Shown piece by piece: positions 1-64,000 of a stretch of DNA of 64,000 nt. Origin of the DNA: Membranipora membranacea (Eukaryota; Bryozoa; Gymnolaemata; Cheilostomatida; Membraniporidae); contig OU612067.1 of NCBI GenBank assembly GCA_914767715.1, forward strand, positions 744,001-808,000. Reading direction: 5' to 3'. The position numbers were made by a program, and so were the translations under genes. Numbering within the stretch: the stretch's first letter is position 1; every line of letters begins with the position of its first letter. A model generated the notes under the pieces. It saw nothing but the letters and a program-made list of their open reading frames with translations, was not told the DNA's origin and did no database searches.

Positions 1-2262
1 AGTATAACCTCTAGAGATGATCTAGTTCTGGCTCAATGCTCAGTGCAGATAATAACGACTTGCAGGCTGAACGAAGCCAAGGTGGATCTCTTCTGATATC
101 GACCAGGGAGTTAGAGATTCCTCAGTCCGATATACTGCTTATGTCACGAGGCTCTAGTTACTGTGTTACAACTCGCTACCCTTATCTATCACAAACACAG
201 ATACCCACAACACAAGTCTATAAAATAATGTATTATAATATTATATTATTAAGTCACATGATTTAATTTATTCTACATTATAATCAGGTGCTACATGTTA
301 ACTACCACTTACCAGGGAAGTGAGCCCACCCTGCACTAACCAGGGACCCCTCCCTGCACTCACTGTCTATCTGTCTCTTGCGTCAACTTTCGCCTTTTCT
401 GCTTTGTTGCAAAAAATCTGTCTAAAATTAACTATAGATACTTTGATCTCTCACTATTTTTTGTTAAGCTTTTAATTTTGATCGTAGAATTATTGGTAGT
501 GTGGTTTGAATGTACACTTCAAAACAAGGTGATTTTTTTCAATTTTTATATGCACATTATAAGTTTTGTATATACATATAATACTATTGCCCAAGATTTT
601 AATCAGATCTTGGTAATACTGCTACTAAAACCTTATTATGTTTTCGTACGAGATTCAGATTCCTATTTTTGTATATTGACATTTTCTATAGCATACAGTA
701 CCATATTTGTTGACGTTGTACATTCAATAAAATGTATATTATAAATAAAGCAACTTTCGCCGTTCTTTCACACAGAAACAAAATATCCAAAATTCCTGAT
801 CCATTCCTCAATATCTCTTTTTATGGATTTTATGGAGATGGCAGAATATGTACTCCAATAATTGCTGTAATGTTGTTTTTTTTGTATCCAAACTCTACCA
901 ATTCTCCTAGTCATAGTGTTGGAATAACAGTGTACAGTAGGTCCTGTAGATTGGAGGTTATGAGTCTCCCATCGATTAACTACCAAGTACACATATGAGC
1001 GGCCAGACTAACCTGACAGCCAGTCTATGTTGGTCATGGTGTGAAACTTCACACTTGAGTCACTGCCCTATAAACATATAAATATGCCCCATTGCATTTC
1101 CATCTCGGGTAAATGATGAGCTTCGTCATTTTCTTAAAGCCATAATTTCAGATATCATCATCAATTTGTGGCATATGCTGCAAACCCATGAACCAATGTA
1201 ACTCTATCTCTTCAGTCCTTACTGTCAGTAGGGCCTAGACCATGTTAGGTCCATTTCCCTGCATTACGCATAGCCAGTGGAAGGGAGCAATGATCTGCTA
1301 TTAGCCCCAAACACAATATCTCTATCACACTTAGGAGTTGTGTCACTCTGAGAGTAGAGGGCGACTATATAGATGTTAAACTGTGATCTGTTGGTTTCTG
1401 CAGGGAGGGTGGGACGGGTCGGAACCCTCCCTGGCACCCTTCCTCCCTTTCTGTATAATATGACTTTATTTGTATGGTAGTGACTGTTTCAAGCTTGTGC
1501 CATTTGCGTGCATTTTATTGTATTGCTATAACAAAATAAAGTCAGTATATAAAGTAAAACTCTAGAGGGCAAGTATATATAACAAAGGGTGCTGTGGACT
1601 GGAAGAGTTGAAGAAAACACTAGTTCAAGTTTTGCAGAGTTAGGGTCGAACATACAGTAGCTGCTAACATAACCTAATTGCGTTATTTCAAAGCAGATCA
1701 TGTTCAGTAAGTGGATGCCATCTTCCTTGATCTTCAGTGAAGAATTCGATAATGTCAGTCACAAGAAGTTTGGTCATTGGAGTACATTCCAAGTAATTCC
1801 CTGGGTGCAGAGTCTACTAAAAGGTGGCATCCCCGAGGCCCTGATATCATCATCCACTTGACCGGTGAAAACTTTGATCAGTTCCAAAAAATCTAGATGT
1901 TCTCCGAATATGGGTGAGTAGTTAAAAGATAGAGCTTCAATCCTTTCAAATGCAAATAATGTGAAGTCTCACGGGAAAAAAACTAAGGGAGAAAACTACA
2001 TCCTCCACAAAACAGACAGTGCAAAACAGCTGGGAGTAAAACTGGAGAGCTCACTCAGATCAATGAAGGAAGGAGGAAGAGGGAGTTCATTGCTCAGATG
2101 GAATGAAAATTCCATCTATATTTCCAACAAATCATCCAGCCTTCTTTGTAGCTACAATTTTTATGCCAACAAAGCATTTGGATGATACAATTACAAACAA
2201 AATTAACACCTAGCACATAAAGAGGGTTATCCATTATATTCCAAACAATATTTGGGTTCACA
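1..2262. other. Intergenic, no gene seen
   Basis: AT-rich non-coding sequence. Open frames here are short, lack splice context and match no family I recognise. A small palindrome at 1401-1433 is listed separately. Nothing else is supported. Confidence 0.5.
1401..1433. repeat. Short GC-rich palindrome
   Basis: Arms CAGGGAGGGT (1401-1410) and ACCCTCCCTG (1424-1433) are perfect reverse complements around a 13-base loop. A near-identical palindrome lies at 63047-63085, so this looks like a dispersed short repeat. Confidence 0.6.
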
Positions 2263-2359
2263 CTAGTTTAAGCGCTCAAATTGTGGCGGGATACCTGGTA
2301 GAGGCATTTCATTATCAACCACTTTCCCCATCCCGCCTCAGTTTGAGCGCTTAAACTAG
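2263..2359. repeat. Short inverted-repeat element, MITE-like
   Basis: Two 29-base arms (2263-2291 and 2331-2359) are reverse complements at 27 of 29 positions. They start and end with CTAGTTTAAGCGCTCAAA and flank a 39-base centre. It lies about 350 bases upstream of the lectin start codon. It could be a tiny foldback transposon; no clear target-site duplication was seen. Confidence 0.6.
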
Positions 2360-2713
2360 GTTCGTACAGGTTTGCTTTACTTGATTTGATGGAATTGCAA
2401 TTTCACCACATCTATCAAGGGTTCAGATGTTATGGTATTGATTTCTTTGATGATTTAGTAGTGGCTTTGTTATCTGAGAATGGACACATTACATGTCACA
2501 TAAAACAGGGAAAGAGAACTACTGAAACTGAACCACTTCGTTAGATGTCCCCTCATAATAAAGTTTATATATCACTATTACAGAAATCCTGTTACTGGAC
2601 CTTGAAATCATAATTATAGAATTATCAAAGCTACAGGATATCAACCAAGCTGTTGTTCCTATCCCAATGAGTGTCTTTCCTCAGCCGCACATTGACCAGC
2701 TGACTCAGCGGAG

Positions 2714-4713
2714 ATGGATGTTCATGTAGAAAAGCGAAGGAGACCTGATAGTCAGAGTAAAGCCATAGCAGGATCCTTTATTGTAGTCTTCTTGATGATG
2801 GCTGTAATACTGTGTGTTGGTGGAATCGGTGCACTTTACATCAAAGACTTACAGGCAAGAATCGAGAGCTTAGAGAAGGTTAGCTTTAGTATTTATTTAT
2901 TTATTTATTTATATAGGTTGGCTTGAAAGTGTACAAATAACAGATAGTTAAAGGCAACTTGTTGACTTCTAGTATATTGTCTATAGTAGGACAGCTGGAT
3001 CAGCTGTGTTCCTTTCTTTCAAAATTTGTAGGAATGAATTACTTTTTCGAACCATCTTCCACAAATTTTAAATAATATTCCAAATCATCTGAGTGTTCTG
3101 TGGCTCTCCCAATTCTACCTGCAGACTCATCGAATAACCCAAATTGTCTATATATGGTATCTCTTATATCCTTGAAAACAAAACCATTTCTTCCTCTAGG
3201 TTTGTGAACTGTCTAAGGAACGTGCTATTGACAAGCGTGAAGTTTTATCATCTTCGAAATCAGATCTTCAATCTCTGCTACTAATTCAGCTCCAGGATAA
3301 GCTAGCTACTCTACAGCATCAGTCTCAGGAGGGGGATTCTGACCTACAGAGTGAGTTATCTGAACAGGCTGCTGAACTCAGACAGGAGCTAAGGTCTGAG
3401 AGGACACAACTCAAACAGCAGCTAGGAGATGTTCGGAATACAATAGCTCAGTACCATGTTAATACATCAGGTAATATTCTTCCCAGTCTGTCTTAGAATA
3501 AAGTAAATTAGTATGATAGAATTGTGAGATCGCTTCCATAAATACAATAAAGAAGTATAAACAATTAATTTTCATTATTTTCATTGTAAAATTTTTATTC
3601 GAAAATAAACATGAAAACCATTTCCATGTGTACATCGAAATGAATTGTGAGATCATCACTAGGCCAATACCGAGACATCCTATTTCCTTGGACAAATAAA
3701 CAAGCGGACCTTCTCATACATGGCTCCAGTTACCTGAGTTCTCATTACACAGATATAACTTATGTACCCTGCTGATACCTTGTTACACAGATATTACCTG
3801 CCAATCTGGATACAGACTGAACCCATACAGAGGTACATGTATTAGATATGTGAAGACTGCTCTCAGCTGGTTTGATGCTAAGTCTAGCTGTGAGAACTCA
3901 GGAGAGTTTCTCACTACATTTGATTCCGTAGAATCAGCTTTCTGGTTAAGGCATCAACAGCTCACTTCTGGTAAGTCAGTATATACTTGATGTATCCTTA
4001 CACTCATTCTCCAAAAACTGTACTTTTCTAATATTTTATTGGATTACATTATCTGTTACTTTAGAAACATAAAATGGCCTTATCTCTTATCACAACACTG
4101 AGTAAAATTGAGTAAAGGAGTAAAAGTTAGCTAGAGTTAAGTTAAGCGAGTTAGGTAGACATAATTTTAGCTAGCATTTAATTTTGGTTAGCTAAGGTGA
4201 GAGTCTATATAGCTTAATATGAGTAAATGGTAGCTGGCTTTAGGTTTATATATTTCAAGCCTGTGCAAAATGGATAACTTACTTTTCTGTAAATACTTTC
4301 CTCCTCTAGGGTATGTGACTTTATTAGTTACCCAATACATCAATGATGTACATCCATGACTGTACGTGTGTACATTGTTAGAGAAATCATTTAGATCATG
4401 AGGGCGCAGAAAATAGTGATATTGGAACATTAACAGTAATTACGCAGCCTAATGTCTCATACCGCTCTTGTTATAATATTCAGATTGGACCAGCAGCTTG
4501 TGGATCGGAGGTCGGTATTTGGCAGACAGGGATGAGTATAGATGGTTTGGGATGAACACTGGCACTATGGGGATTAACTTCTGGGCTGTTGGCCAGCCTG
4601 ACAACTACATGAGAGACCCTTGTTTGGTAACATGGCAAAATCATCATTACTACTGGGGTGATATATCCTGCAACTACAAAAGTTATTTCTTGTGCGAACA
4701 GAAAAAAGAATAA
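2714..4713 (+). CDS. C-type lectin-like type II membrane protein, 4 exons
   Basis: Exons 2714-2878, 3200-3470, 3791-3970 and 4484-4713 join in frame to 281 residues. Exon 1 gives a short basic cytoplasmic tail (KRRR) and one membrane segment at about residues 20-45, with no cleavable signal, so the C-terminus should be extracellular. Exon 2 is a charged, Gln/Leu-rich stalk of about 90 residues, likely a coiled coil that oligomerises. Exons 3 and 4 form one C-type lectin domain: cysteines at the expected places, WIGGR, a QPD triplet (galactose-type in the family) inside WAVGQPDNY, and WGD in place of the usual WND calcium motif near the last cysteines. A ligand cannot be inferred. A damaged tandem copy follows. 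Family assignment is firm; orthology is not. Confidence 0.88.
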
Positions 4714-4776
4714 CATGATTACCGCTGTTGTATTTCCATTTGTTTGTTTCTGCTTATCTGTCAGTGTCACACAACA

Positions 4777-4782
4777 AATAAA
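4777..4782 (+). terminator. Poly(A) signal of lectin gene
   Basis: AATAAA lies 64 bases after the lectin stop codon, a plausible cleavage and polyadenylation signal. Confidence 0.55.
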
Positions 4783-5320
4783 TGAATATCTAAACAAGAA
4801 TGAACAAAGAGAGTTGTTTATAAGAAGGCCTACCATATAGGCTAGGTATAAAAATAAGAGTGTCTAGGGTTATAAACAGTGGTGTGATATTTCGAGTATT
4901 CAGAGTTGCTGGGAGTCCAGGACAGTTGACAGAAACAAACCCCAGCTAACAGAAGTTCAAAATAGTTTATTGCTCGGTGGAGCCGTTGTCTTCTCAGTGA
5001 ATGATTTTGGAATGGAATTGCTCAGTTCAAGGGCCTAAAATTAGAGGAGGAAGGGAGATGCGCCCTTAAAGATTTGGCCCCAAAAGACTCTGGGTCACTC
5101 ATTGGATTTTGTTAACCATAGAAATATTGATATCATCATGTTATATGGGTCTTAAACACCCAGAACACAATATCTCACTACCAACAACTAACCAACTATA
5201 TCCCAGCGTATTATTTATTATGGTAATAAAATCAACCAGATAGAGTGAGAGGTATGGTATATCCCACCGGCCCTGTATAAAGCCTCGATCTATGATCTAA
5301 TTTGCCTGTATTTGGCGTGT

Positions 5321-6745
5321 GAAGCGTGAAGTTTTATCATCTTCAAAACCAAGCCTCCAATCTGCGCTCTTAATTCAGCTCCAGGATAAGATTTCTACCC
5401 TACAGCATGAGTCTCAGGTGGGGGACACAGATCTACAGAGAGCGATATCCACACAGGCTGCTGAACTCAGACAGGAGCTAAGGTCTGAGAGGACACAACT
5501 CCAACAACAACTAGGAGATATAGCTTACAAATAAGTAAAGAATTTAAAGCTGTTGATACAAGCGTCGATATACTGAACCATACAATTGCTCAGTATCATG
5601 TTAATACAGCAGGTAATATTCTTGTTATACCACCTCCCTCTTTTTTCCAGGAAATGGTATTTTATTGAATACAATAGACAGCTTGTTGGATCCCCGAAAG
5701 GCCGAAATCAGATTGTCTTATTTTAGGCAAAAAATTGCAATTTCACTATGGCTACCTGATTTCTTGTTATACAGATATATAACTTATGTACCTTGCTGAT
5801 ATCTTGCTACAGAGATACAACTTATGTACCCTGCTGATATATTGTTGTACAGATATTGCCTGAATTTTTGTTACACAGATATTACCTGAGTTTTTGTTAC
5901 ACAGATATTACCTGCCAATCTGGATACAGACTGAACCCATGCAGAGGCACATGTATTAGATATGTGAAGACTGCTCTCAGCTGGATTGATGCTAAGTCTA
6001 GCTGTGAGAACTCAGGAGAGTTTCTCACTACATTTGATTCTGTAGAATCAGCTTTTTGGTTACGGCATCAACAGCTCACTTCTGGTAAGTCAGTATGACC
6101 TGTTTAGCGATCTTAGGCGCACTTAAGCTCAATAGGTTTATTTTCTCTTTCAGATTTTGACTAATTGTGCCATAAACAGAACCTTGTGTTGTAGCTGATT
6201 TCATTATTTTCCTCTCTAGTCCACCTTTCTCTATCGGTCGCGTTATTCTCATAATACGGAGGTCAGTATGGAGGATCATACCTGGCCTGCCACACAAGCT
6301 CCTACTATGACCATTTATAGTGCATACTATTATACTTGTATACAAATGACTGGAACTGAGCATATTGCTGACAACTACAGCAAAGAGAGTGAACATTTAG
6401 AGTGTTGGAATATTGTGTACTAACCATCTCTATTAGGACATGAGAATTAACTCTTGTTTCTTCTAGGATGCAGTTACCATTGATAAAAATTCTGGTGGTT
6501 GATGTTTTTTTATCTACAGATTGGACAGGTAACTTGTGGATCGGAGGTCGGTATTTGGCAGACAGGGATGAGTTTAGGTGGTTTGGGATGAACACTGGCA
6601 CTATGGGGATTAACTTCTGGGCTGTTGGCCAGCCTGACAACTACATGAGAGACCCTTGTTTGATAACATGGCACACCATTACTACTGAGGAGATATGGCT
6701 TGCGACTACGCAGCTTATCTTCTGTGTGAACAGCAGAAAAAGTAA
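5321..6745 (+). pseudogene. Decayed tandem copy of the C-type lectin
   Basis: Three blocks match exons 2-4 of the upstream lectin: 5321-5612 (stalk), 5905-6084 and 6520-6745 (lectin domain). The membrane exon is missing. The stalk frame breaks after LGDIAYK at a stop; reading continues in another frame and holds about 15 residues that the upstream copy lacks. In the last exon a small deletion shifts frame after the DPC region, and the tryptophan of the WGD motif reads TGA in the old frame. The middle exon is intact with the same splice sites. A truncated transcript is possible, but the copy cannot give a full lectin. Confidence 0.8.
5800..5906 (+). repeat. Tandem copies of 3' splice site plus exon start
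   Basis: In the lectin pseudogene the stretch TTGTTACACAGATATTACCT, which is the acceptor plus the first bases of exon 3, occurs as successive imperfect copies before the real exon start at 5905. The upstream lectin has a looser version just before 3791. Confidence 0.65.
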
Positions 6746-7654
6746 CCTTTGCTGGCTAATTCTCAACTCTCTTTGTCATTATTTAATTGTTGTGATTGTT
6801 GGAGCTTGAATAATTGTCGAGTATTAAGCTACGCAGTTGAAATGAAATCTTTGTTGAGACAAAGTTCAAATAATGCTGAGAGTTAAGCATACTCATTATG
6901 GAAAATGTTATGAGGCTGAAGGTTATAGTTCCAGGACTCACGATACAGAAGATTGACAATAAAGTGAATGATACAATATCACACAAAAGTTAAACCTAGC
7001 GAAACCATGTGTCCCCCCTCCCATAATGCTCTTGAAAATCTGAGTCGTGTCCACCTAATCATGTCGAGACAATTCCGTACACAAAGAGATTGTTTCAATA
7101 TAAATTATTATTATTACAGAGAGTAATAGGTTAGTAGAATCATGACACTACAAATCCTCAATTGTTCACGAGAAATATGGAGGAACTGCATTGTTTTATA
7201 TGACTGCTCATATGGTACAGGATCATGACGTGACAGTCAGAAGTGGTTTGGTTGTAATACTGACACTTTGTCTTTATTTGTGACAGATAAAATAAATGAA
7301 GATCTTCTCTCACAAAGGTGTGATGGAAACAGGGAGAAAATATAACATGTACATAAAACACTGATAACAAATAGATTATGTCATGAAAGTCAGGATAAAA
7401 ATAGTCTTAGGAGTTGGCCAAAAGTTTGCGTGAAAGAGCTACCGTAGGTAAATGTTTGTGTGATGATTCCCTACTACATAGTTATAAGAATATCTTATCT
7501 TAAACAGTGAGGTGAAATATAAAACAGGCCCTCTTGTACCTCTTTACAAAGTTACTCATTCTCAGCTCTCAGCCACTCATATTATTATTATTATCACATT
7601 AAAGTGGATAAAAAATGTCATAACTTGTGCACATAAAAAGCAGAAATTATTTTC
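6746..7654. other. Intergenic, no gene seen
   Basis: AT-rich spacer between the lectin pseudogene and the 3' end of Rap1 on the opposite strand. It probably includes the Rap1 3' UTR. No coding signal recognised. Confidence 0.45.
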
Positions 7655-13587
<5,933 letters not shown>

Positions 13588-16915: not shown

Positions 16916-17413
16916 GTGTGAACATTTCATCAAAACAATACTTTAAGCATTATTTAATAATTGTCATTTATCCTTTATCACTTTTTTTTAAATTAATACA
17001 GGTCTTGTCACATATTTTATGTTGCTTCATTTTTGTCGTTTTTATGAGTGGCTATTATCACTCACAATAATTAATTTTCCAAGATTTTTTTGCAATGTTA
17101 TGAAACTATTACTATGAACTTCTCTACGTTGATTGTTATCTAGCTGCGGTATCAGCATCTTATCATGGATGCTGGAGAGATGGAGTTGATATGGGCAGAG
17201 CTCTGGAAGGACTAGCTATGAATCTCAGCTCCACTGGTACCATAAAATCATGTGTGCACTACTGCAGAGCTGAAGGTAACAATCAAAATTAAAGTGTAAC
17301 ATAATGCAACAGAAGACACCAAATCGTAAAGTTACCCCTGATTCTAGTACAGTTTAAATTGCAGAATCTCTAATTTAAATCATAGGCTATACAGTTTTTA
17401 TTTTGCTCTCACA

Positions 17414-18385
17414 TGTATATTTATATATTCTCAGGTTATATATTTATATATTCTCAGGTTATATATTTATATATTCTCAGGTTATATATTTATATATTAT
17501 CAGGTTATATATTTATATATTCTCAGGTTATATATTTATATATTATCAGGTTATATATTTATATATTATCAGGTTATATATTTATATATTATCAGGTTAT
17601 ATATTTATATATTATCAGGTTATATATTTATATGTTCTCAGGTTATATATTTATATGTTCTCAGATTATATATTTATATATTATCAGGTTATATATTTAT
17701 ATATCATCAGGTTATATATTTATATATTATCAGGTTATATATTATCAGGTTATATATTATCAGGTTATATATTTATATGTTCTCAGGTTATATATTTATA
17801 TGTTCTCAGATTATATATTTATATATTATCAGGTTATATATTATCAGGTTATATATTTATATGTTCTCAGGTTATATATTTATATGTTCTCAGATTATAT
17901 ATTTATATATTATCAGGTTATATATTTATATATTATCAGGTTATATATTTATATATTCTCAGGTTATATATTTATATATTCTCAGGTTATATATTTATAT
18001 ATTCTCAGGTTATATATTCATATATTCTCAGTTTATATATTTATGTATTCTCAGGTTATATATTTATATATTCTCAGGTTATATATTTATATATTGTCAG
18101 ATTATATATTTATATATTCTCAGGTTATATATTTATATATTCTCAGGTTATATATTTATATATTATCAGGTTATATATTTATATATTCTCAGGTTATATA
18201 TTGTCAGGTTATATATTTATATATTGTCAGGTTATATATTTTCAGGTTATATATTTATATATTGTCAGATTTTATATTTATATATATTCTCAGGTTATAT
18301 ATTTATATATTGTCAGATTATATATTTATATATTCTCAGGTTATATATTTATATATTGTCAGGTTGTATATTTATATATTGTCAG
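17414..18385 (+). repeat. Intronic satellite copying the WSC acceptor, unit 1
   Basis: About 970 bases of tandem units, mostly 23 bases with a shorter 15-base form TTATATATTNTCAGG (N varies). The unit equals the sequence spanning the real acceptor at 18385/18386, TATATTGTCAG followed by GTTATATATTT. The array therefore consists of repeated copies of the 3' splice site plus the exon start. No TAA, TAG or TGA occurs in any forward frame, so very long open frames run through it. One of them runs in frame into the real exon. Confidence 0.9.
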
Positions 18386-20771
18386 GTTATATATTTGCTG
18401 GAATGCAGTCAGGTACAGATTGTTACTGTGGTAACACATATGAGGAGTACGGTAGAGCTCCTAGTGAGAGTGAGTGTGGTACACCATGTCCCGGAGATAG
18501 CTCTCAGATGTGTGGTGGAGATATGAGGAACTCAGTCTTCAAGACAGGATATCTCGGTAATATTGTAGACTTGAGTTCTCAGTGGTTCTCAACATTTAAT
18601 TAACAGTGCTTCGCCAAAATATTCTGTACAAAATTTTAAATAGTAAGTTTATAGCTGCCTTGGACTTCAAGCTACCCTAATCACTGTTATAGCACATATT
18701 GGTGGATCATCATTGCTGCTTTGATCTTGGTATTCAGTCAAGAACTATTAAGTAAAGATGGTAAGCATGGTAGCTCACTTTTCTAACTAGGGGGGCTTTC
18801 AATTTGCTAATGTTAGGTCCTTATTATACTGGTTAGGATGTTGGAAGAACTCACGCAGTATAAGAGTGATGCCAGACCTCACAGAGATGTATGGATATAC
18901 TGCCTCTGTGGACACATGTATACAGATATGCCACGATAAAGGTGAGGTTTTCAAATGTTTGGTTATAATTATTACTTGTAAAGTGTTGAAACTGCACACA
19001 TTATAGAACAATATCACATAATGAATCTGTAAAACTTTTTGACCTGAGCCAATCATGAATAAATCTATCCTAGTCTTAGTGCTGAGACGGTTGCAAGTGT
19101 GTGTTTGTGGCATTACACTATCAAACCTTTCACATCACATTTCAATGATTGATAACGTTGTGCCACAACAATTGCAGCCGTCTGAGCACTTAGACTAGAT
19201 CTAATCAAGACAGGTATTTTATGGTACAGAGTAAAGCAAGACGCGCTACAGAGTGAGAAATATAAAAAACGAATAATACGGATAGCCGCACTGATTCACC
19301 AAAATTGACAAACCAGAACATAAAACAAACCTTAACATGCTATGGAGACCATTGTAGTGTATAAGCTTAATTTCCAGTTAAAATTCTCATTGAAGACATC
19401 AGATCCAAGTAAAAAATTGAAAAAGTCTCGCGGCCACTACATGAATTCATGGCAAACTCTCAGCTCCTAAGTAATCATGCAGCCTTTGTAACTTTTCATA
19501 TATTTTTAAAAGCCTAATTGTTTTTTATGGATGATAGGTTACAGATACGCCGATGTTCAGTGGATGTATCAATGCTGGTGTGGTAACAGATTTCACTACC
19601 TGGGTCGAGCTGAGGAGAGTGAATGTAACACTCCATTGTATTGGGATGTCCAACATTATTTTGAGGTGTATCTTAACAGTGGTCTCTTTATTAAGTTGTT
19701 GTAACTTTATTGCAGAAACTGAGTACTGTAACCTGTTAATAAAAGTGACGTTTTAAAATTGGTACTTGTAACATTAAAACACATTAAAATATTTGACATC
19801 AAATTGTTGTGAACGATTTAGAAGCAAATACAATGAAATAGAATAAAGCAACTTAATTATCTTGACTTACAAATTTTGACACCTTCACATAAGTATGGTG
19901 ATTCCTGGTTGGTGAGCTATAATATTGGTGCTGTTGTAGGTACTGAACCTATTAATAAAATGACATACAATGACTACGTACAAAAACTAGGTCACAACAA
20001 ATTTATGTGGCAATTGCATACATGTTGAATACAATTAACTTCAGATTAATTGTGCGTTTATAAATATGAAGATACATGTAAAAACAATAAAATACAAAAA
20101 ATGAACTTACGTATTCAGCCTTAGACTTAAGATATGTGTGATATGGTGGTGTAATGATACGCTAATTCTCCTGTAGTGTAGTAAATATTGAGGAGAAAAT
20201 TTTCCCAAACAGGTGGGTTTGACTATAAAACTGATTTCTTTCTACATTTTGATGTCTTAGTTGGGTGACGGCTAAATGACTAATGCTTTAAGAAAACTGT
20301 ATGATATGCGACAAGAATAGATTGTTTAGACTTGGCTAGCCATAGCTTAGATAATTTTGGGTATATAATGAGCTAGGACATAAAATTCACATCATGCTGA
20401 GAAAAAGTTACATCAAAATCTATGACCTTGCTTGAATATTGGCCTCTATTATGTAATGTTGATTTAGGTGAGGCAAAAACTGGGTGCATCACCTGTATAC
20501 CAATACACCAGAGGGAGAGGCTGTTTGCCTCACATACACTAAAATTCTAACTAAAAAACCTACTAAAAATAAAACTTGTGGTTATTGAGGTGCTAGACAC
20601 TGGCTATGCTATAATGATTTCTCAAATGTGTCCACCTTACAACTATGTGACAGTAGCTGACATGGATTGAAAAAGATAGATAGGATAGAGTGTGCTTAGA
20701 TTGTGTGATGATAATGTGATAAGGATAATGGTTATGGTGACATGATTATACATGATTTTGTAGGTAAATAC

Positions 20772-21473
20772 TTACATTTCCTCTACTGTAACTAGAGGCG
20801 CTATTCTATGCACACTCCTTGTGACCAGCACATCTGCAGACCCTGTATAATTACGTGCATTGCCACTTACCTTGTGCAGTTTGTATCTGAGTGAAACACG
20901 TCTTACTACACCATCCTTGTCTGGATGGATCGAAGCTACCTGGGCTACGTAGTACTGACTCCTCAGGCTGTTCGGGTCAGCTACTTGAACGATATCACCT
21001 ACCTGGTAGTCTGGTCTTCTGGTTTTCCACTTACTTTGGTTCACCATGGTAGGAGCGTATAATTCTGTCCATTTCTTCCAAAACTCCTCTGCTATGAGAT
21101 TTGTAAGGCCCACTCTGGTCTTTTGATTACAGATTCCAATCCTGGAGCTATCCAGGATGCTGGAGGTAGATCTACCTAGTAGTAGGCAGTTCGGCGTGAG
21201 AATGTTTATCTCAGAGTCTTCTGCCGGCATTCTTCCGAGAGGTCTCTCATTGAGCATGTTTGCAGCTTCATAACACACACTCATGAATTCTGAGGCTGTT
21301 GCTCTCTGACTTCCAATGGCAAACTTCAGGCAGCGTTTTGCGCTTTTTACCAATGCCTCCACAGCTCCTTGATTCCATGGACTGTCAGCTGGCCCAAAGA
21401 TCCACTGACAGCCGTTGTCCATTGCACTCCTGAAAAGGGTAGCACGGCTGACATTATTCCATATGTCCCGCAA
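20772..21473 (-). pseudogene. BEL/Pao integrase C-terminal fragment
   Basis: An open frame of 233 residues. The motif PADSPWNQGAVEALVKSAK resembles the region around the last catalytic glutamate of DDE integrases. The tail has the small basic C-terminal domain typical of BEL/Pao polyproteins (WKTRRPDYQVGDIV). Upstream pol is missing, so it cannot act alone. It stands inside the LTR element described here. Confidence 0.8.
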
Positions 21474-21522
21474 CTCTTTGCTGGTATGGACCAGCTGTGA
21501 TCCCGGGTCTAAATATATCCTA

Positions 21523-21689
21523 CAGTTTTCTTATAGCATTAGTCATTTAGCCGTCACCCAACTAAGACATCAAAATGTAGAAAGAAATCAGTTTTATAGT
21601 GTTTGGGTTTGACTATAAAACTGATTTCTTTCTACATTTTGATGTCTTAGTTGGGTGACGGCTAAATGACTAATGCTATAAGAAAACTG
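21523..21689. repeat. Perfect 77-base inverted repeat
   Basis: 21523-21599 and 21613-21689 are exact reverse complements around a 13-base loop. Both arms are LTR sequence; the right arm is the start of the truncated LTR copy, the left an inverted duplicate beside the integrase fragment. Confidence 0.93.
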
Positions 21690-27300: not shown

Positions 27301-30300
27301 TTTGTCAATAAAATGTGTGATAGTTGTTGTAAGGCATAAGACAGCATCATGTGTTGATCTTTTCTGGCGGTAGGCAAACTGATGGCGGTCCATGACTGTG
27401 TGTTTAGTTATGTATATTTTAAGTTGTCTCTCTAGCATTTTACATAGGCAGCTGGTTATGGCTATCGGGCGGTAGTCTTTGAGTTGTGTTGGTGTGGTGA
27501 CTTTTGGTAGTGGTTTTATTACAGCAGATTTCCATAGCTTAGGTGTTGTATGTTGCTCTATAGAGTTATTGAAGAGTTTAGTAATAATAGGGGCTAGTTG
27601 GTAGGCACATATCCTAAGGACCTTAGGGATTAGTCCGTCGGGTCCAGCTCCTTTCCTAGTGTTGATTGTTTTGAGTTGTTTCAGTACATTTTCTTCATTC
27701 ACTTCAAATGGAGGAGCAGTCATTTTAGTTTCATCGATATCTGGGTTATTTACTTTAGGTTTCTCATAGCGTGCAAAGAATGTGTTCAGGTCGTCTGGTT
27801 TGAATTTTATCTCATGTTCAGTTGTAGAGGTTGATGTAGGAAGTCCATTTAATTTTTTTATATCTTTCCAAGCTCTAACCGGCTCATTGATTAGATGTTG
27901 TTGAATTCTTTTAGAGTATTCCAGTTTGGATTTGGTGATTTCTTTGGTGACTGATTTTTTAAGTTTATGATACAGTTTTCTATTTCCACTTTGGTGCGCC
28001 TTTTGTTTTTGAACAATCAAACCATCTATGTGCTTGGTAATCCATGGTTTCTGATTTGCATGCTTTTTAATTGTTTTCATTGGTATACACAGGTCCGTAC
28101 AGAAGTTTATGTAATCGGATATCACATCTGTCTGTTTATCAATGCAGGGTTCATCCAGAAGATTATCCCACAGGGTGATATCCAATCTAGCCTGTAGAGC
28201 TTTGCAGTTCTCATCTGTGATATATGAAGGTTTAGTTTTAGACAGAGGCTTGTAGCTAGGTATTAAATGCATGACATGGTGATCAGAAAGGCCCAGTTTA
28301 GCAAGTTGTTGGCAGTGACTGTAGCCGTTCTTGATTCTAGTGAAGCATTTATCCAGTATTTTATTGTTCCGAGTAGGTTTCTTGATTATTTGGTAGTAGT
28401 TGTTGAGTTTGATTGGAAATTGATTGAAGTCTCCCATAAGTAGTATGCAGGCATTAGGGTATTTAGTTTCAATTTCTTTTAGATGTGAAGTTATAGTGAT
28501 TATAGTCGAGGCGGTTGAATCTTTAAGTCTTGATTTTCCAGTGAAAGGGGTATAGCATGAGATAGAGATGATTGAAGAGAATTCTCTGGGTAGCCAGTGT
28601 GGTCTAGATTTAATTGTCATGATCTCGCAGTGATTGTCCGTGTGATTGTAGATAGTCTGATTATTTGTTGACCAGCATTTATCGATGTACATCAAAATGC
28701 CTCCTCCTATTGTTTTACCGCTGTCCTCGGGCAGCCTATCATTTCTAAACTGTTCATATCCATCTAGTTCTGTCCGTGATTTTGAGATGTCAGGGGTAAG
28801 CCAGGATTCGGTGATACATATAACATGAGAAAGATTTTTAAGTCGTTTGGTGTTTAGCAGTCCATATAATTCATCAAGTTTATTACATACAGAGTTAGCA
28901 TTTGTAAGTACAATTGCTGGTAGAGGGACTCTGCCTTGGTTCCTGCTTATGTTGACTCGTACACCTGATCGCCTTCCTCGTTTCTTAGTTTTTAATAATC
29001 CAGGATCAGTTTGTTTTACAAGTTTTTTATAGTCAGTGTTCCAAATTTCTTTTATTTGATCTCGTTGCAGGGAATTTTTAATGTCCATAATAGTAGCATA
29101 GTTCGCATACTCAAGGCTCCTCACTCCTCTTGGATGTAATATAAGGGTGAATATGAGCAGAAGTATAAGCAGAGGCTGCAATAACTGCGCCATAGTTGCT
29201 AGCAGTAATTATCACACAGGTATTAATTGTATAATAAATTAGTGAAAGGGGATTAAGAGAGAGAGCTTGAAAAGCACGTCTTATTCTCAGGTTATATATT
29301 CTCAGGTGATATATTTATATATTGTCAGGTTATATATTTATATATTGTCAGGTTATATATTGTCAGGTTATATATTTATATATTCTCAGGTTATATATTC
29401 TCAGGTGATATATTTATATATTGTCAGGTTATATATTTATATATTGTCAGGTTATATATTGTCAGGTTATATATTTATATATTCTCAGGTTATATATTCT
29501 CAGGTGATATATTTATATATTGTCAGGTTATATATTGTCAGGTTAGATGTTTATATATTCTCAGGTGATATATTTATATATTGTCAGGTTATATATTGTC
29601 AGGTTAGATATTTATATATTCTCAGGTTATATATTTATATATTCTCAGGTTATATATTCTCAGGTTATATATTTATATATATTCTCAGGTGATATATTTA
29701 AATATTGTCAGGTTATATACTTATATATTGTCAGGTTATATATTGTCAGGTTATATATTGTCAGGTTATATATTGTCAGGTTATATATTGTCAGGTTATA
29801 TATTGTCAGGTTATATATTTATATATTGTCAGGTTATATATTTATATATTGTCAGGTAATATATTTATATATTCTCAGGTTATATATTTATATATTGTCA
29901 GGTTAAATATTGTCAGGTTATATATTTGCTGGAATGCAGTCAGGTACAGATTGTTACTGTGGAAACACATATGAGGAGTACGGTAGAGCTCTTAGTGAGA
30001 GTGAGTGTGGTACACCATGTCCCGGAGACAGCTCTCAGATGTGTGGTGGAGATATGAGGAACTCAGTCTTCAAGACAGGATATCTGGGTAATATTGTAGA
30101 TTGGAGTTCTTAGTGGTTCCCGCCATTTAATTAACAGTGTTTTGCAAAAATATTCTGTACAGAAATTAAAAAAAATATCAGCCTTGGTTTCCTAATTACC
30201 CTAGGCGCCGTTGCAGCACATCTCCTACATATTGGTGACATCGTTGCTGCTTTGATCTTGGTATTCAGTCAAAAGATATCAAGTTGAGAGGCTATGTAGT

Positions 30301-49357: not shown

Positions 49358-52300
49358 TCAGTTCAAAGCAGATTCAGTTTTTGCCCCATTAAGGTTGGTG
49401 GGCTTGGTTGAGGTAGCCTGTTGATGTTTTTGAATAGCCTTGCTGTTGTAATTTTCTCTAGGGGAGTGATTATGAGTCCTATGTGAAGCTTGACGGGAAT
49501 CATATCCCCCTCGTCCTCGACCAGAGTAAGGTCTACCCCTACCTCTGCCTCGACCTCTAGCACCACCAAAACTTTGCCCACAATCTTGAGACCCATGTCC
49601 TTCATGTACAACAGACCCAGAACCTTTTGAATGATTCGATTTGAGTTCTGAGCGATTTTGATGTGCATCAGACTTTTCCTCACTTTTAACTGAAATTTTC
49701 ACAGTTTCCTTTTCACCTCCCCTATCTAATTGGTCTGTTGTGCTAGATTTGATACGAGAAGGTCTGGATTTAGCACCCTTGGTATTGTCATATCTCTTAG
49801 CACCGTTTTCAGCACCAGCTTGTATGTCTTGACTTGTTCTGTCTGAATAATGCACATTGTCACCACTTCTCGGTATCTGAGTATCTGAACTCTTCTGTGA
49901 AGGTGGTCTTTGTCGATGACTATCTCTATGATGTCTGCCTTTACCTCTGCTAGTTGGTCTGTCCTCATAATTATGTCGGGGAGAACCGACCGACGCTTTG
50001 CTGGGCCGGCTATAATCTCCTTTTTTAGCGTTGCCAGCGAGTTGTGTTGATGAAACAGCTAATGATTCGATTCCAGACATTGAGCTGGCAGGGACTTTAT
50101 TCTCTTCACCTGTTGCCTGTATTGATATATAATATCGGCATTCATACATCATGTCCATCATTAGCTTTGTTCTATGGATTCTATGATTTTCTGATGATAA
50201 ACAATGAGGAGCAATAATATTCACGGACATTATAATATTGCCATAATGATCGGATAAGTAATGGCTTCGGCCTACCTGAGCTCCAGATTTATCATCATTG
50301 CCTGTTTCCTCCTCTTCAGGCGGTGGTGAGGGGGGCGGGGTAGGTAATCTATGTTTCCTCTTCTCATACTCTAAATCTATAATACCTCCCTATAAAATAT
50401 GAGAGGTTCAGCAAAATTGGTCTACTAGCCTAATTGATGACTATTTGATTTCGACTGAACATCATCAGCAAACACTGTTTGACAAACAGATTGTAAAATG
50501 AAACATATCCATTAAATTTTAACAATATGACACAATAAACCTGAAATCTGTATTCTGTTATTTGAAAATCCTCATTACAACTGACTTGCCACGACAGTGA
50601 TATTATGGATTACTAATAAGTTTTTTAGTAGTTTTTAATTTCAATGAACTGCCAAACATTTGTACAACATCCTTAACAAGACATATTCCCAATGAGTCTA
50701 GTCATTTCTTAAATGTGATGGTAAGAGTATCGTTTGTTTACCACACCTGAGCTTTCTGTTTCTCAAATATCTTACTCCACTCTGCTTGCTTAGTTTTCAT
50801 TTCCTCAGAGACTTTGTATACAAATCTTTCTTCATCAGCATGGTCTTCACAGGGCATATATGTAATGGAGGTCAGGGGCTCTCGACACTCCGGGCAAATA
50901 AACTACAAGGGGAACAATTTTAGAAATCGTCTTTTCGTGATAAAACAGAAGGCAACCGCCACATGGAATGTGAATTCATTTTGATATTTTCGTTATACAC
51001 AACGCAATTGGTGATGGTTCAACTACCTTTTCCTCATATACTAGCACCTCTAGACCTAGAATGACATGTCAAATTCAATGATGGAGAAAAGGATTGTTAG
51101 TTAAGCTGTTTTTCTTTTGACTGTAATTCTAACCTGTTCTTTCTTGTGTTGTTGATATACTGGTAGTTCCATTCTTTTCTTCTCTTTCTCTTTATGCTCC
51201 GCCTCCCAATGCTGCTGATATTTACTCATACATGCAGCATGGAAATAATGATAACACTCTGTACGTATGAATTGTCTCCCCTCATCAAGGAAGTCACATA
51301 GACAGATAGCACATACTCCGTGAGGTATGTTACTCTCCGTTAGGGTCTCTCTGATAAGCTGTAAATGAAAACCTGTTACTATTGATTGTTAACCAAAATT
51401 TTTCTCAATTTAAATTCTTTGATCCTGTAAGTTGAGGTACTTAAAGTACCAGGAGTGCCTGGGGTAAAGACAGTGTTTTAAAATATGTGTGCATTGCTTT
51501 AAAAAACACAATATTCTCAACAAAGGTTTTGGCTTTTTCATATATGTGAATGTAATATGCATTATTTTCATAAACACCTCTTTGTTCGTGATAATAATCA
51601 ATCAATCAATTTATAGCAATCAGATGGTCTCAGCTGACATTGCCCAATATGATATGTTGATGAGTACCCCTCAATATCATATTTGGGGATTCCCAAAGGA
51701 AAATTATTCAATGTTGGCAAAATAATCTGTCCCTCTATTCTTTGCTTGATGTTATACCTGATCTGAATTTTAGAAATGTTGCATTGTGGGAATGGTGTTA
51801 CAGTGCCCTAATTGGCTGGGAGGATGAATGGACAACCACAAAAATGTTTTCCTCATTTGGGTGATTGACGTTGCGCTATGATGCATCCTCATAAAATTTA
51901 TAATAAGAGATGGCCAGTAAAATTATATAAGAAAAGACAACATTTAATACCTCAAAAAGTTGCATCATGACTGGACTCCCTATCTCTTCCTGAATATAGT
52001 CGGCTAGTTTCTTCTCAAGTCTAAAATGAAGTAAGTAGCATTTAGTAACATATGTTATATCAAATCAAAATATGAAATACTGTCATTGGTGACATAATCA
52101 ATCAAGCAAAGTCTCATCATATTTAAATAATATCAATAATATTGGGCTGGTATTTACAACAAAATTTCGTATGTCCCTTGTTAAAAAATGATACTAAAAT
52201 ATCTTTGACTACCTTTGACCAACACTGCTTTGTGATAATTTCTGGTGTATGTATAGCAGCCTGAAAACTGTCTAGGCGAGCAAGGGCTGGGATTTCTGCT

Positions 52301-58560: not shown

Positions 58561-60990
58561 GACAAGCAATAGCATAAATGACAAAGGAGCTAGCCAAGAC
58601 AAATTGGGATTTCAATTACAATGAATTCTCACTCAATGCGAAAGTTGAGAAGTTCCAGGATTATGTATTGTCACTATATGATGAGCATTTTCCTATTAAG
58701 AATATCGGTGTACCTATGGGCAAACCTGCTATCACCTCTCCACTAATACGTAAGTTGAAACGTGCAAAATACAGGGCTCATCGTAAAAACAACCCTGCTT
58801 GGAAAGCCCTGTCAGCCACTCTGAAATTTCATCAACAGAAAGAACTACAGAAAAATACTGATAACGAAATAAATTCAGCAACCAGAGGATCTGAAGATTG
58901 GTGGAACAGCATAAAGAGATTGACTGGAGGATTAACAACTCCCATTTCGTCTCCAATGGTGAGGGTCAATAACAATTGGATCACAAATGCAGAGTTCTCA
59001 GGTTACTATAACAGTTACCTTACCAACAACGACAGTGTCATTGAATTCCCTGACTATAATGTTACAATTGATGACATTCCATCGGTAGAAGAATACACGG
59101 TAAACTCTCACCTAGAAAATATAGATACCACTAAGGCAACCATATCAGAGAATTACCCTTCATGGATATCAAAAAATAACTCGCATATCCTCTCTGAGCC
59201 TATAGCACACATCATTAACAATATCTTTGAGTGTGGAAAATTTCCAATGCGATGAAAGCGAGCAGAGGTCGTACCTATCAACAAAGTACCTGATCCATCT
59301 ACATATAAAGATTACCGCCCAATAAGTATTTTACATCATTTGAGCAAGGTTGCTGAGAGAATACTCTCCTGGCAAATTACAGAGAAACTTCCCACTCTCA
59401 AATACCAAGATGCTTACACAAGGAATATTGGTACAACAGATGCTTTGGTGAACTTTTCATCTAGTGTGGCTAGCTTGCTTGATTGCAATGACAATCTCGG
59501 TGTTCATGCAATAATGCTAGACTTTTCTAAAGCATTCGACAAAATGCGTCCAGATCTCGCTGTCAAGAAACTTTTAAAACTGAAAATAGATGGATGTCTT
59601 GTAGCTATTGTTCAGGACTTTCTCCCTAATAGACAGTTTTCTGAGCTCTTATTTATGCCTTAATTCGGAGTTGTCCTCTCTCCAGTTTGGTTCTTTTAAC
59701 CCACTCCGCATAGGAAAAACCTGCTGAAAGAGGGTTATCTTGAAAACCGCTTATGTTAGGATAAGAATGAAATTTGATTCAGAGTCTGCACCATTGAAAA
59801 CCCTGTGGGACAGGGTTTCCAAATCATTGGAGGCTTGAATTTTGATACATCTTAATTTTAGTGATGAAACTCATCAAATCAAAAATAATTTTTATCCTAT
59901 TATAAGCGGTTATCAAGATAACCCTCTTTTCAGCACGTTTTTCCTATGCGCCCTGGGTTAAAAGTACCAAACTGGAGAGAGGACAACTCCGAAAGGAGGC
60001 CTAAATCAGAGCTCAGAAAACTGTCTATAGAGAACAATGTGTGAGGTTTCGCAACGGAAAATCCATCTTCAGTCCAATTAATATAGGTGTCCCCCAAGGG
60101 ACAGTACTAGGTCCTCTACTCTGGAATGCATTTATCTATGACTTGTCACCACCAACACCACATCTTAAGTACGCCGATGACACAACTTTATACCATCCGC
60201 TATCAAAATCTAACTGTCTCATGACTGACTCTACTGCTCATCGGGCAACTGTGAGCATCAGCGACAACCACCTTCAAAGAGCACTCGATTACACCTCTCA
60301 GTACTGCACTGTTAACTTTCTGCTGTTGAATGTGAACAAAACTCTCTCCATAAACTTCACTTTGCAAAAAACACTCACCATTGACACCTATAACATCAAT
60401 CACTCTGAAATACTCTACACCCCAAATGTGAGGCTCCTTGGTGTGATATTTGATGAGCACCTGAAGTTTCACTCCCATGTAAACCATATCATTGACAAAA
60501 CAAAACATGTTCTGCATGGTCTTATAAAGCTAAGAAAAGCTGGTGTGAGATCTCATTCACTGATATTATTTTACAAAGCTAGAATTTTATCGGGTTTATC
60601 ATATGCAGCCCCGTGCTGGTTCCCACACACCACTCAAAATGATAAGGATAAACTGGAGAGATTTCAAAAGCTCTGCCCCAGAATTATGATTCCATATGAG
60701 GAAGTCTATGAAGAGAGACTTTCTTTACTAAAGCTCGAAGAGCTAAAAATACATCTTGATCTTCTTTGTTTTCGATATATTGCAAAGGTTAAAGAATATG
60801 AGAATCATCCATGTAAAATATTTTTGGAAGCCCGAAATCACCGTTCTATAAATAGGACAGCATTTAAAGACAATGATATTTTTCATTAATACACCTGACT
60901 GCTTTGTTTTTATTTATTTATTTATGCATGGTCTTTATTTGTCATTGACTTTGATCGGCAATAATAAAGTATATATATATATAACTTTGA
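58560..60990 (+). mobile_element. 5'-truncated LINE with MITE inside
   Basis: Reverse transcriptase frames at 58578-59255, 59256-59660 and 60041-60889: KDYRPISILHHLSKVAERIL, MLDFSKAFDKM, GVPQGTVLGPLLW, KYADDTTLY. A TGA at about 59253 replaces the Trp expected in the (W)KRAEVVP motif. A MITE at 59631-60026 splits the frame after VAIVQDFLPN; outside it reading resumes at CVRFRNGKSIF. The 3' end is AATAAAGTATATATA near 60962. The endonuclease is missing. Confidence 0.85.
59631..60026. mobile_element. Long-TIR MITE, copy B
   Basis: AGACAGTTTTCTGAGCTC at the left and its exact reverse complement at the right. Removing it with one AT dinucleotide restores the LINE reading frame, so the target duplication is AT (or TA). 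It is shorter than copy A in the centre. Confidence 0.88.
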
Positions 60991-61679: not shown

Positions 61680-61687
61680 TATATAAG
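61680..61687 (+). promoter_or_regulatory. TATA box of EF-hand-hemerythrin gene
   Basis: TATATAAG, 32 bases before an initiator-like TCAGTT whose A at 61712 is the likely transcription start. The 5' UTR would then be 72 bases. Confidence 0.65.
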
Positions 61688-61709: not shown

Positions 61710-61715
61710 TCAGTT
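61710..61715 (+). promoter_or_regulatory. Initiator element
   Basis: TCAGTT matches the animal Inr (TCAKTY) and lies at the canonical distance from the TATA box. Confidence 0.55.
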
Positions 61716-61783: not shown

Positions 61784-63709
61784 ATGGTATTATTCAGATA
61801 ATAATTATAATTCCGACAAGCAATCGAGCTTTCTTTCTACATTAACTTATTTGTAATTGGACTTATTTCCAAAGTTTGCCGCCTACCGAATGACTTTTCT
61901 GTAGTGTAACATTTCAATTCCATTCATGATATTTATGTTGTCTTGTGTATCATATGAAAGGTCTGATTTGTGAGTATTATTTGTAGTCTAAAGCAGATTT
62001 GGATTGGCTGAAGAGCTCAGTGGAGAAGCTGACACCTGAGCAGAGGGCTGAGTACAGAGAGGCATTTGATCTCTTCTGTGATGGGAGTGGAAAGGATGCC
62101 GTCATCACATCCAGTCAGCTCAAATCTTCTCTGACCTCCCTCGGTCTCGACCCGACTGATAACGATATCAAGGCCATGCTGCACAAAGTTGATCTAGATG
62201 GTAAGTATTCATTTATGAGCAAAGGAAATGTTATTGACTTATTATGTATTTTGCACAATTCAGTAGTTCTACAAGCTACAGGGCAAAACTTTCTTGACCA
62301 TAGCAATTACCTACCTTGCGCAATTTTGCAAAATATGAGAGTTAACATTTTACCCACATGGTTATAATTTATTATAAAGGAAATGGAGTAGTAGACTTTG
62401 ATGAGTTTTTGGTGATGATGGCCGCCAAGGTTATAGAAGGTGGCCAATCAGGCATCAGCTGGGCCCACAAAGTACCAATCCCATACGTCTGGGACAAGTC
62501 ATTCGGAACACTCGTAAGTGGCTTTATATATCTTTTTTATATTTACTCCAATACATATGTCTGTCAACTCTCTTTGATTGAAAGCCATTACCTTACAACA
62601 AATTTAAAAGCATTGTACATGCCATTCTGCCTACACGAGTATCAAAGCATGCATGGTAATAGGTTTTGAAGTTTTGGTTACTTTGCTTACAGTACCAGAG
62701 AATCGATGACGAGCACAGACATCTGTTCCACACAATCTGGGCTTGTTATGATAATAGGCAGTCCTCCTACTCTCTGTTGAACATGGTGGCCACAATGCAG
62801 CAGCACTTCACCTACGAGGAGGGATGCATGAAGGCATCCAAACATGACAATTATGACCGCCACAAACAGGTAATTATTAACTTTGTCGCGATCGAGGGTT
62901 GCTTATGTTGTAGTTTTTAAATGAATGATATTCATTTGAACATCACTGTATTGGAACTTTTGAAGAGGTTTGAGGTCGGTTTCTGCATTTGTTCTTGTAT
63001 ATTATGTTGTAAGCTAGATTTTTTAAAAAAGCGTTGAAACTATCAAATCAGGGAGGGTGGGATATACCCTACTACCCTCCCTGATCAAACTGTACTGTTC
63101 AGATCCATTTAGAGTAATCTCCCCTATGCTCAACATCAGATAACTCTCATTTCTGGCTTCTGCTTTTTCCCCTCCGGGGGGCCATTGGACAGGGGGCAAA
63201 GTCTGGGGGGCTCAGACTAGACCTGATATTATGATATAATTGTTACAGGTGCATGATGCATACATGGACAAACTGAAATACTTCTCTGTACCAGTGGCTG
63301 ATAAGGACATCAAGTACTGCATGAGCTGGTGAGTAAATTATCACTTCATTTAGATGGCACTTCGCAAAAACTTATTTGTTTATAACATACTTATTATATA
63401 TATGAAAACCTTAATAAAAACACATAATTCAAATGATGATGTCGCCAATAAAAATTATAAATATCCTGAGAGAAACCAAAATGAAAAATAATTCCTTGAT
63501 GGCTTTCTTTGGTTGAAACAATTATTTGAGACAGGGCAGATAACTAAATGAAATGGCTTTTCAAAGGCACACCCTATCATTATTTGAGCACAAATCTTGA
63601 CCGAATATGTTTCTCCATTATTAGGTTGGTCAACCACATCAAGAACACCGACTTCAAATACAAAGGCAAGCTGCTGACCACAGCTGGTGGAGAACTCCTT
63701 GCCGCCTAA
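61784..63709 (+). CDS. EF-hand-hemerythrin fusion protein, complete
   Basis: Exons 61784-61786 (ATG only), 61987-62200, 62380-62513, 62693-62869, 63249-63328 and 63625-63709 join to 230 residues. Residues 1-90 are a calmodulin-like EF-hand pair: LTPEQRAEYREAFDLF, a degenerate first loop, and a canonical second loop DLDGNGVVDFDE (70-81) with all calcium positions filled. Residues 104-230 are a hemerythrin (PYVWDKSF, DDEH, HFTYEE, WLVNHIKNTDFKYKGKL). All seven di-iron ligands are present: H125, H155, E159, H174, H178, H207 and D212, spaced as in myohemerythrin. Expected to bind O2 reversibly and calcium; cytosolic, as no signal peptide is seen. Exon 3 holds both the second EF-hand and the hemerythrin start, so the fusion is not a model error. 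Animal hemerythrins are normally single-domain (about 120 residues). Confidence 0.94.
63047..63085. repeat. Short GC-rich palindrome, second copy
   Basis: Arms ATCAGGGAGGGT and ACCCTCCCTGAT are perfect; same core as 1401-1433. It lies in intron 4 of the hemerythrin fusion gene. Confidence 0.65.
63170..63222. repeat. GC-rich dispersed repeat, second copy
   Basis: Contains CCGGGGGGCC and GGGGGCAAAGTCTGGGGGGC, then TCAGACTA, matching 36075-36128. Located in intron 4 of the hemerythrin fusion gene, 26 bases before the exon 5 acceptor. Confidence 0.65.
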
Positions 63710-63798: not shown

Positions 63799-64000
63799 TA
63801 GCATGATATCAAAATACTTTTTTGACAACTTTTTAATTTTCACGTTTTATTTTATTCTAACAGGCAACACACTTTATGTTTTCACAACTTATTTTTATTG
63901 AAGAATAAAGTTATTTTAATCATAAACTAACTCATTTACTGAGCCAAGGTAGACTTGTGGAGCAGCAACTTAGTTAAACTGAAGCTGACGTTGTCCTTTA

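Follow-up and report, generated by a model that had tools for sequence, protein, structure and literature searches.

Hemerythrin is a classical oxygen carrier of animals that is best known in stand-alone form. Can it also be built into one chain with a calcium-binding lobe, and what would such a chain do? The question is raised by a gene on the + strand, at 61784 to 63709, of a 64,000-nucleotide stretch from the bryozoan Membranipora membranacea (contig OU612067.1, positions 744,001 to 808,000 of the forward strand; here called the window), which lies on contig C3 of the 339,339,785-base, 18-contig assembly that we searched. A sequence-only reading of the window had described this gene as a single six-exon frame encoding a calmodulin-like EF-hand lobe followed by a hemerythrin with all seven iron ligands.

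An EF-hand lobe and a hemerythrin in one frame

Splicing in silico at the coordinates first proposed, which proved exact, gives an open frame of 693 nucleotides over six exons (230 codons plus TAA), with GT-AG boundaries at five of five introns. Both halves of the translated protein are recognized independently. Pfam places an EF-hand pair near the N terminus (PF13499 at residues 37 to 86, 36.3 bits against a cut-off of 30; PF13833 at residues 38 to 87, 37 bits against 28) and a Hemerythrin domain at residues 117 to 218 (34.0 bits against 25.3). A sequence search of the PDB matches residues 14 to 90 to calmodulin and finds residues 103 to 219 closest to myohemerythrin of Themiste (1a7d, E 6.1e-32). 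H125, H155, E159, H174, H178, H207, and D212 align in order with what we take to be the seven iron-ligand positions of myohemerythrin (five His, one Glu, and one Asp). Together, these matches bear out the proposed architecture.

The hemerythrin part resembles Themiste myohemerythrin (PDB 2mhr, 1a7d, and 1a7e) in its 44% identity over 117 residues, its seven ligands, and the four-helix myohemerythrin fold that it takes in a predicted structure model. This model is the second version built; the first, made without calmodulin rows, rendered the EF lobe poorly (block means of 48 to 75). The Themiste protein, in contrast, is a 118-residue stand-alone chain without an EF-hand lobe, and single-domain hemerythrins usually have about 113 to 126 residues, against 230 for the window chain with its lobe. 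The animal-type family TIGR00058 (NCBIfam), scanned against the window protein and one paralogue, gene B, scores 133.2 bits for the former, above the cut-off of 131.85, and 129.9 bits, just below it, for the latter. No signal peptide was seen by eye in the window protein. Its second EF loop fits the canonical 12-residue pattern and its first, degenerate and with a two-residue insert, does not; the loop states originally assigned stand. The elements of the gene are as follows.

61680 to 61686, + strand: TATA box TATATAA, by motif match
61710 to 61715, + strand: initiator-like TCAGTT, a possible transcription start 30 bp past the TATA box, by motif match only
61784 to 61786, + strand: exon 1, the ATG alone
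61987 to 62200, + strand: exon 2, with the N-terminal helix, EF-hand 1, and the beginning of EF-hand 2, ending in phase 1 within the Gly73 codon
62077 to 62118, + strand: EF loop 1, CDGSGKDAVITSSQ, degenerate, of canonical length plus two residues, by alignment
62191 to 62405, + strand (62191 to 62200 joined to 62380 to 62405): EF loop 2, DLDGNGVVDFDE, canonical, interrupted by intron 2
62380 to 62513, + strand: exon 3, with the remainder of EF-hand 2, the linker, and the hemerythrin start, KVPIPYVWDKSFGTL
62469 to 63673, + strand: hemerythrin domain, residues 103 to 219, in exons 3 to 6
62693 to 62869, + strand: exon 4, with ligands H125 (62714), H155 (62804), E159 (62816), and H174 (62861)
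63249 to 63328, + strand: exon 5, with ligand H178 (63252)
63625 to 63709, + strand: exon 6, with ligands H207 (63635) and D212 (63650), the C-terminal tail, and TAA
63793 to 63798, + strand: poly(A) signal AATAAA, with a second at 63904, by motif match

The presence of introns rules out a processed copy.

Paralogues, a joined transcript, and database relatives

A protein search of the whole genome returned 18 exon-level matches, of which 5 fall in the window gene and 9 in two genes on contig C4. The other four, on C1, C2, C6, and C8, correspond to the EF-hand part; those on C1 and C2 extend into the linker, and the one on C1 reaches residue 114. Genes B and C, the pair on C4, are convergent, with about 2.3 kb between their 3' ends:

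L027, 2112 to 3885, + strand: gene B
L027, 6150 to 7889, - strand: gene C

Each encodes 232 residues when spliced, in an open frame with GT-AG introns, and each has a TATA motif 5' of its ATG. Introns 1, 2, 3, and 5 are identical in position and phase in all three fusion genes, and gene B is without intron 4. EF loop 1 is canonical in gene B; in gene C, it is degenerate and four residues longer. No tandem fusion copy stands beside the window gene, either within the window or in the next 10 kb.

Are the two halves joined in a transcript? The complete sequence of one database protein, P0003 (223 residues; its JGI contig has 1,193 bases), recurs without a mismatch in spliced gene B, and P0003 spans the junction between EF lobe and hemerythrin. 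The corresponding genomic stretch, introns included, extends over about 1.57 kb. The contig is thus shorter than the unspliced gene and must be spliced, and since it also crosses the junction, joined EF-hemerythrin transcripts exist for gene B, in M. membranacea or a near-identical animal. The transcript check suggested at the outset accordingly has a positive answer for gene B, one paralogue of the window gene. The whole architecture could instead be an artefact of the gene model, a calmodulin-like gene that simply adjoins a hemerythrin gene. The window copy's own transcript was not seen, which speaks for this, but the junction lies within one exon, seven database proteins share the layout, and P0003 refutes a junction artefact for the fusion family, so that we give this explanation next to no probability. 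Chance is likewise excluded: the layout recurs in two paralogues, together with most of the exon plan, and in seven database proteins.

These database relatives came from a first search in which 8 proteins were found among 254 candidates. Seven (P0001 to P0007) align along the fusion at 63 to 88% identity, and precomputed Pfam assignments place both domains in six of them; the remaining one, P0008, is fragmentary. From 2,617 candidates, a profile search drew 187 matches. Among the best 120 of these, the fusions are the same seven only, none of them with a UniRef or nr source; most of the others are hemerythrins, single or tandem, or proteins of calmodulin type. Looking for the architecture in other proteins, as the sequence-only reading had advised, thus did bring out further members, all from outside UniRef and nr within those best 120 matches. 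P0005 is without an internal stretch between LLN and EASKHD that carries H155 and E159; either the assembly is at fault here or the transcript is unusual and its product would have no functional di-iron site. No alignment includes P0008 or P0066, two fragments that resemble individual exons of relatives together with intron ends.

Tandem hemerythrins are the other long-chain relatives. Each of the 35 environmental proteins P0009 to P0043 has between two and four HFxxE motifs. They share with the fusions animal-type hemerythrin domains set in longer chains and differ in these repeated motifs, in that no canonical EF loop was found in them, and in that the seven of them placed in a tree form a separate part.

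Within the genome, an annelid hemerythrin query (P0052) hits three places at E <=0.001, all inside the three fusion genes; this search ran exon by exon and scored the best candidates, so a divergent extra gene could escape it. A scan of the whole genome with the Pfam Hemerythrin model gave 0 matches and is rejected as evidence of absence, since it missed the known gene too; it is uninformative because the hemerythrin domain is split over several exons.

As to the initial remark that no described animal EF-hand hemerythrin was known, no description turned up in the papers searched, and the databases contain seven proteins of this layout. Hemerythrin has been reported from Bryozoa with no EF-hand mentioned in the available portions of the papers (PMC5363010, PMC6400237). 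The word EF-hand is absent from PMC4919030, PMC5363010, and PMC2556348, and the parts at hand of PMC2175520, PMC11453091, PMC7730656, PMC4693282, PMC11101318, PMC8933713, and PMC3573947 contain no EF-hand hemerythrin. A targeted literature search combining hemerythrin with EF-hand, calmodulin, or calcium-binding found no description; subscription papers, a 2013 hemerythrin survey, and bryozoan RefSeq annotation (e.g., of Watersipora subatra, whose assembly is named in PMC13326412) lay outside its reach. The RefSeq annotation of W. subatra may already hold unnamed members. The gene combines known domains in an arrangement for which no description was found and which is conserved.

Conservation of the two parts and the source of the EF lobe

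How strongly is each half held? We count nine family proteins: the window protein, those of genes B and C, P0001, P0002, and P0004 to P0007, P0003 being gene B. All seven iron ligands are present in eight of the nine. EF loop 2 is canonical in all nine and EF loop 1 in four. Nine residues of the calmodulin target cleft are kept in 8 of 8 proteins compared. L204, which corresponds to a Leu next to where myohemerythrin binds O2, is likewise found in 8 of 8 alignment rows.

Between the window gene and gene C, nonsynonymous divergence (dN) is 0.060 and synonymous divergence (dS) is 1.06 (EF part, 0.086 and 0.91; hemerythrin part, 0.041 and 1.22); between genes B and C, the values are 0.163 and 1.32 (EF part, 0.325 and 1.65; hemerythrin part, 0.068 and 1.12). 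The pair of window gene and gene B was not used, its dS being saturated (3.74) and its hemerythrin value undefined. The EF lobe evolves faster than the hemerythrin domain, which is the more strongly conserved part. The frames of all three genes are open, and dN falls far short of dS for either usable pair, in each of the two domains; a pseudogene is ruled out for the window gene and its paralogues. The comparisons indicate that the fusion is conserved and under selection.

Two further explanations turn on these figures. The lobe could be a Ca2+-independent module, serving folding or solubility or binding constitutively to an IQ motif or another target of calmodulin, which would make the protein a tethered myohemerythrin. 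Its degenerate loop 1 in five of nine proteins and its faster evolution agree with that, but a loop 2 that is canonical in nine of nine would be hard to explain without Ca2+ binding; we regard this as unlikely, yet the foremost competitor. Alternatively, the protein could be mainly a Ca2+ buffer with the hemerythrin as passenger, after the manner of parvalbumin, which buffers Ca2+. A loop 2 that is canonical throughout the family would suit such a role; the stronger conservation of the hemerythrin part and the seven ligands in eight of nine proteins do not, which makes it quite improbable.

A quick tree was drawn from 78 of 141 extracted hemerythrin domains (7 fusion rows, 56 single hemerythrins, and 15 domains of 7 tandem proteins), leaving out P0005, which has no complete hemerythrin domain, and, for size, the other tandem proteins. 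The seven fusion rows fall on one side of a branch with a Shimodaira-Hasegawa-like approximate likelihood ratio (SH-aLRT) of 99. A placement of the fusion hemerythrins beside a Magelona protein, P0053, is not claimed, its SH-aLRT being only 81 in this quick tree. Among the family proteins, three whose loop 1 is lengthened, those of the window gene and gene C and P0001, form a cluster (98/97).

Where did the lobe come from? In the calmodulin gene of the same genome (L029), an exon begins at Ala2, so the calmodulin Met must sit in a separate upstream exon, for which ATG|GTAAGT at L029:2898 is a candidate only. A phase-1 intron interrupts the Gly codon of loop 2 (DADG|NG). All three fusion genes likewise have an exon 1 of ATG alone and a phase-1 intron in the matching Gly codon. 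With the first two introns fitting in position and phase, 38 of 75 aligned residues identical to the calmodulin N-lobe, and the target-cleft residues kept, the lobe appears to derive from a calmodulin gene, whose 5' half, introns included, most likely supplied it. The junction with the hemerythrin lies inside exon 3, beyond the stretch matching the end of the calmodulin N-lobe. Unlike calmodulin, which has two lobes and four EF-hands, the fusion has a single lobe with a degenerate loop 1, an extra N-terminal helix, and a hemerythrin in place of the second lobe. The N-domain of cardiac troponin C also pairs one dead EF loop with one live loop, as the window protein does. The fusion's intron plan, in contrast, is that of calmodulin, and this likeness may be convergent.

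Genomic surroundings and a possible role

A reverse-transcriptase-like frame, recognized by eye, runs from 58578 to 60889 (+) of the window, so that about 0.8 kb separates its end from the downstream TATA box of the fusion gene. It is broken by a stop at 59253 to 59255 and by an insert of about 400 bp (about 59629 to 60028), whose arms form inverted repeats (101 nucleotides, 90% complementary; 53 nucleotides, 87%). A DUF5641 frame, presumably a feature of BEL/Pao-type retrotransposons, lies at 20775 to 21530 (-). Long repetitive frames (17348 to 18603 and 29246 to 29906) stand beside pieces coding for WSC domains, one below the Pfam cut-off (17104 to 17289) and one clear (29907 to 30110). Exon pieces were also seen of a C-type lectin (4477 to 4710, +), a Ras-family protein (10060 to 10314, -; Rap1-like by eye), and a RING protein (51107 to 51388, -; RNF25-like by eye, its RING scoring just below the Pfam cut-offs). 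The downstream neighbor (L001, about 1700 to 7500, -) resembles, on inspection by eye, a gene for the eIF4E-transporter (4E-T). A tRNA scan found none in the window. Contig C18 carries mitochondrial genes (named by eye) in the invertebrate mitochondrial code. The COX1 encoded there shares 92% identity with that of Membranipora grandicella; in the best 120 of 8,000 scored candidates, ten further named bryozoan hits come next, ahead of insects. A tRNA scan of L003 also found none and, run with the bacterial code, is uninformative for the mitochondrion.

What might the protein do? The initial suggestion of calcium-tuned oxygen or iron handling is plausible, since the protein retains every iron ligand, the target cleft of calmodulin, and loop 2. 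We propose, with about even confidence for and against, an intracellular O2-binding protein of the myohemerythrin type that would be docked on a partner by its calmodulin lobe when Ca2+ rises. The di-iron site would bind O2 reversibly, and the protein would store O2 or pass it on in the tissue. A rise in cytosolic Ca2+ with muscle, cilia, or nerve activity would load loop 2; the loaded lobe would open a calmodulin-type hydrophobic cleft and dock, through the flexible linker, on a partner helix. The O2 store, or the iron chemistry, would thereby be placed where and when Ca2+-driven work consumes O2. Paralogues with one or two canonical loops would respond at different Ca2+ levels, because the binding capacity of loop 1 differs.

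The di-iron site could instead serve iron or metal handling, or peroxide or nitric oxide chemistry, with Ca2+ as a switch and no part in O2 storage. That the domain groups with animal hemerythrins, by its TIGR00058 score and its identity to myohemerythrin, and keeps L204 in every row tells against this. Precedents for it exist in the accessible portions of the sources: the hemerythrin domain of FBXL5 acts in iron sensing (PMC4693282) and BRUTUS/HRZ in plant iron regulation (PMC11101318), YtfE is tied to nitrosative stress, and an annelid myohemerythrin is linked to cadmium (PMC2175520). FBXL5 and BRUTUS/HRZ also join a hemerythrin to other domains; these are E3-ligase parts in an iron-sensing setting, with no EF lobe (same sources, as far as available). 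Overall, we consider this alternative unlikely.

Ca2+-dependent docking of a cytosolic O2-binding protein would be the economical reading of the sequence, and direct control of O2 affinity the bolder one. In the latter, a Ca2+-gated O2 store, Ca2+ on loop 2 would change how tightly the attached di-iron site binds O2 or how fast it releases it, which we think rather doubtful. If true, such a store would release O2 as the zooid contracts or beats its cilia and would be an O2 carrier under second-messenger control within one chain, half a calmodulin gene set before a hemerythrin. The only hemerythrin genes found in this bryozoan genome carry a calmodulin lobe, and their intron pattern appears to record where the lobe came from. 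Direct placing or tuning of an oxygen carrier by Ca2+ thus becomes testable. Of the three paralogues, one has both EF loops canonical and the others a single canonical loop, a set that would serve as a natural experiment.
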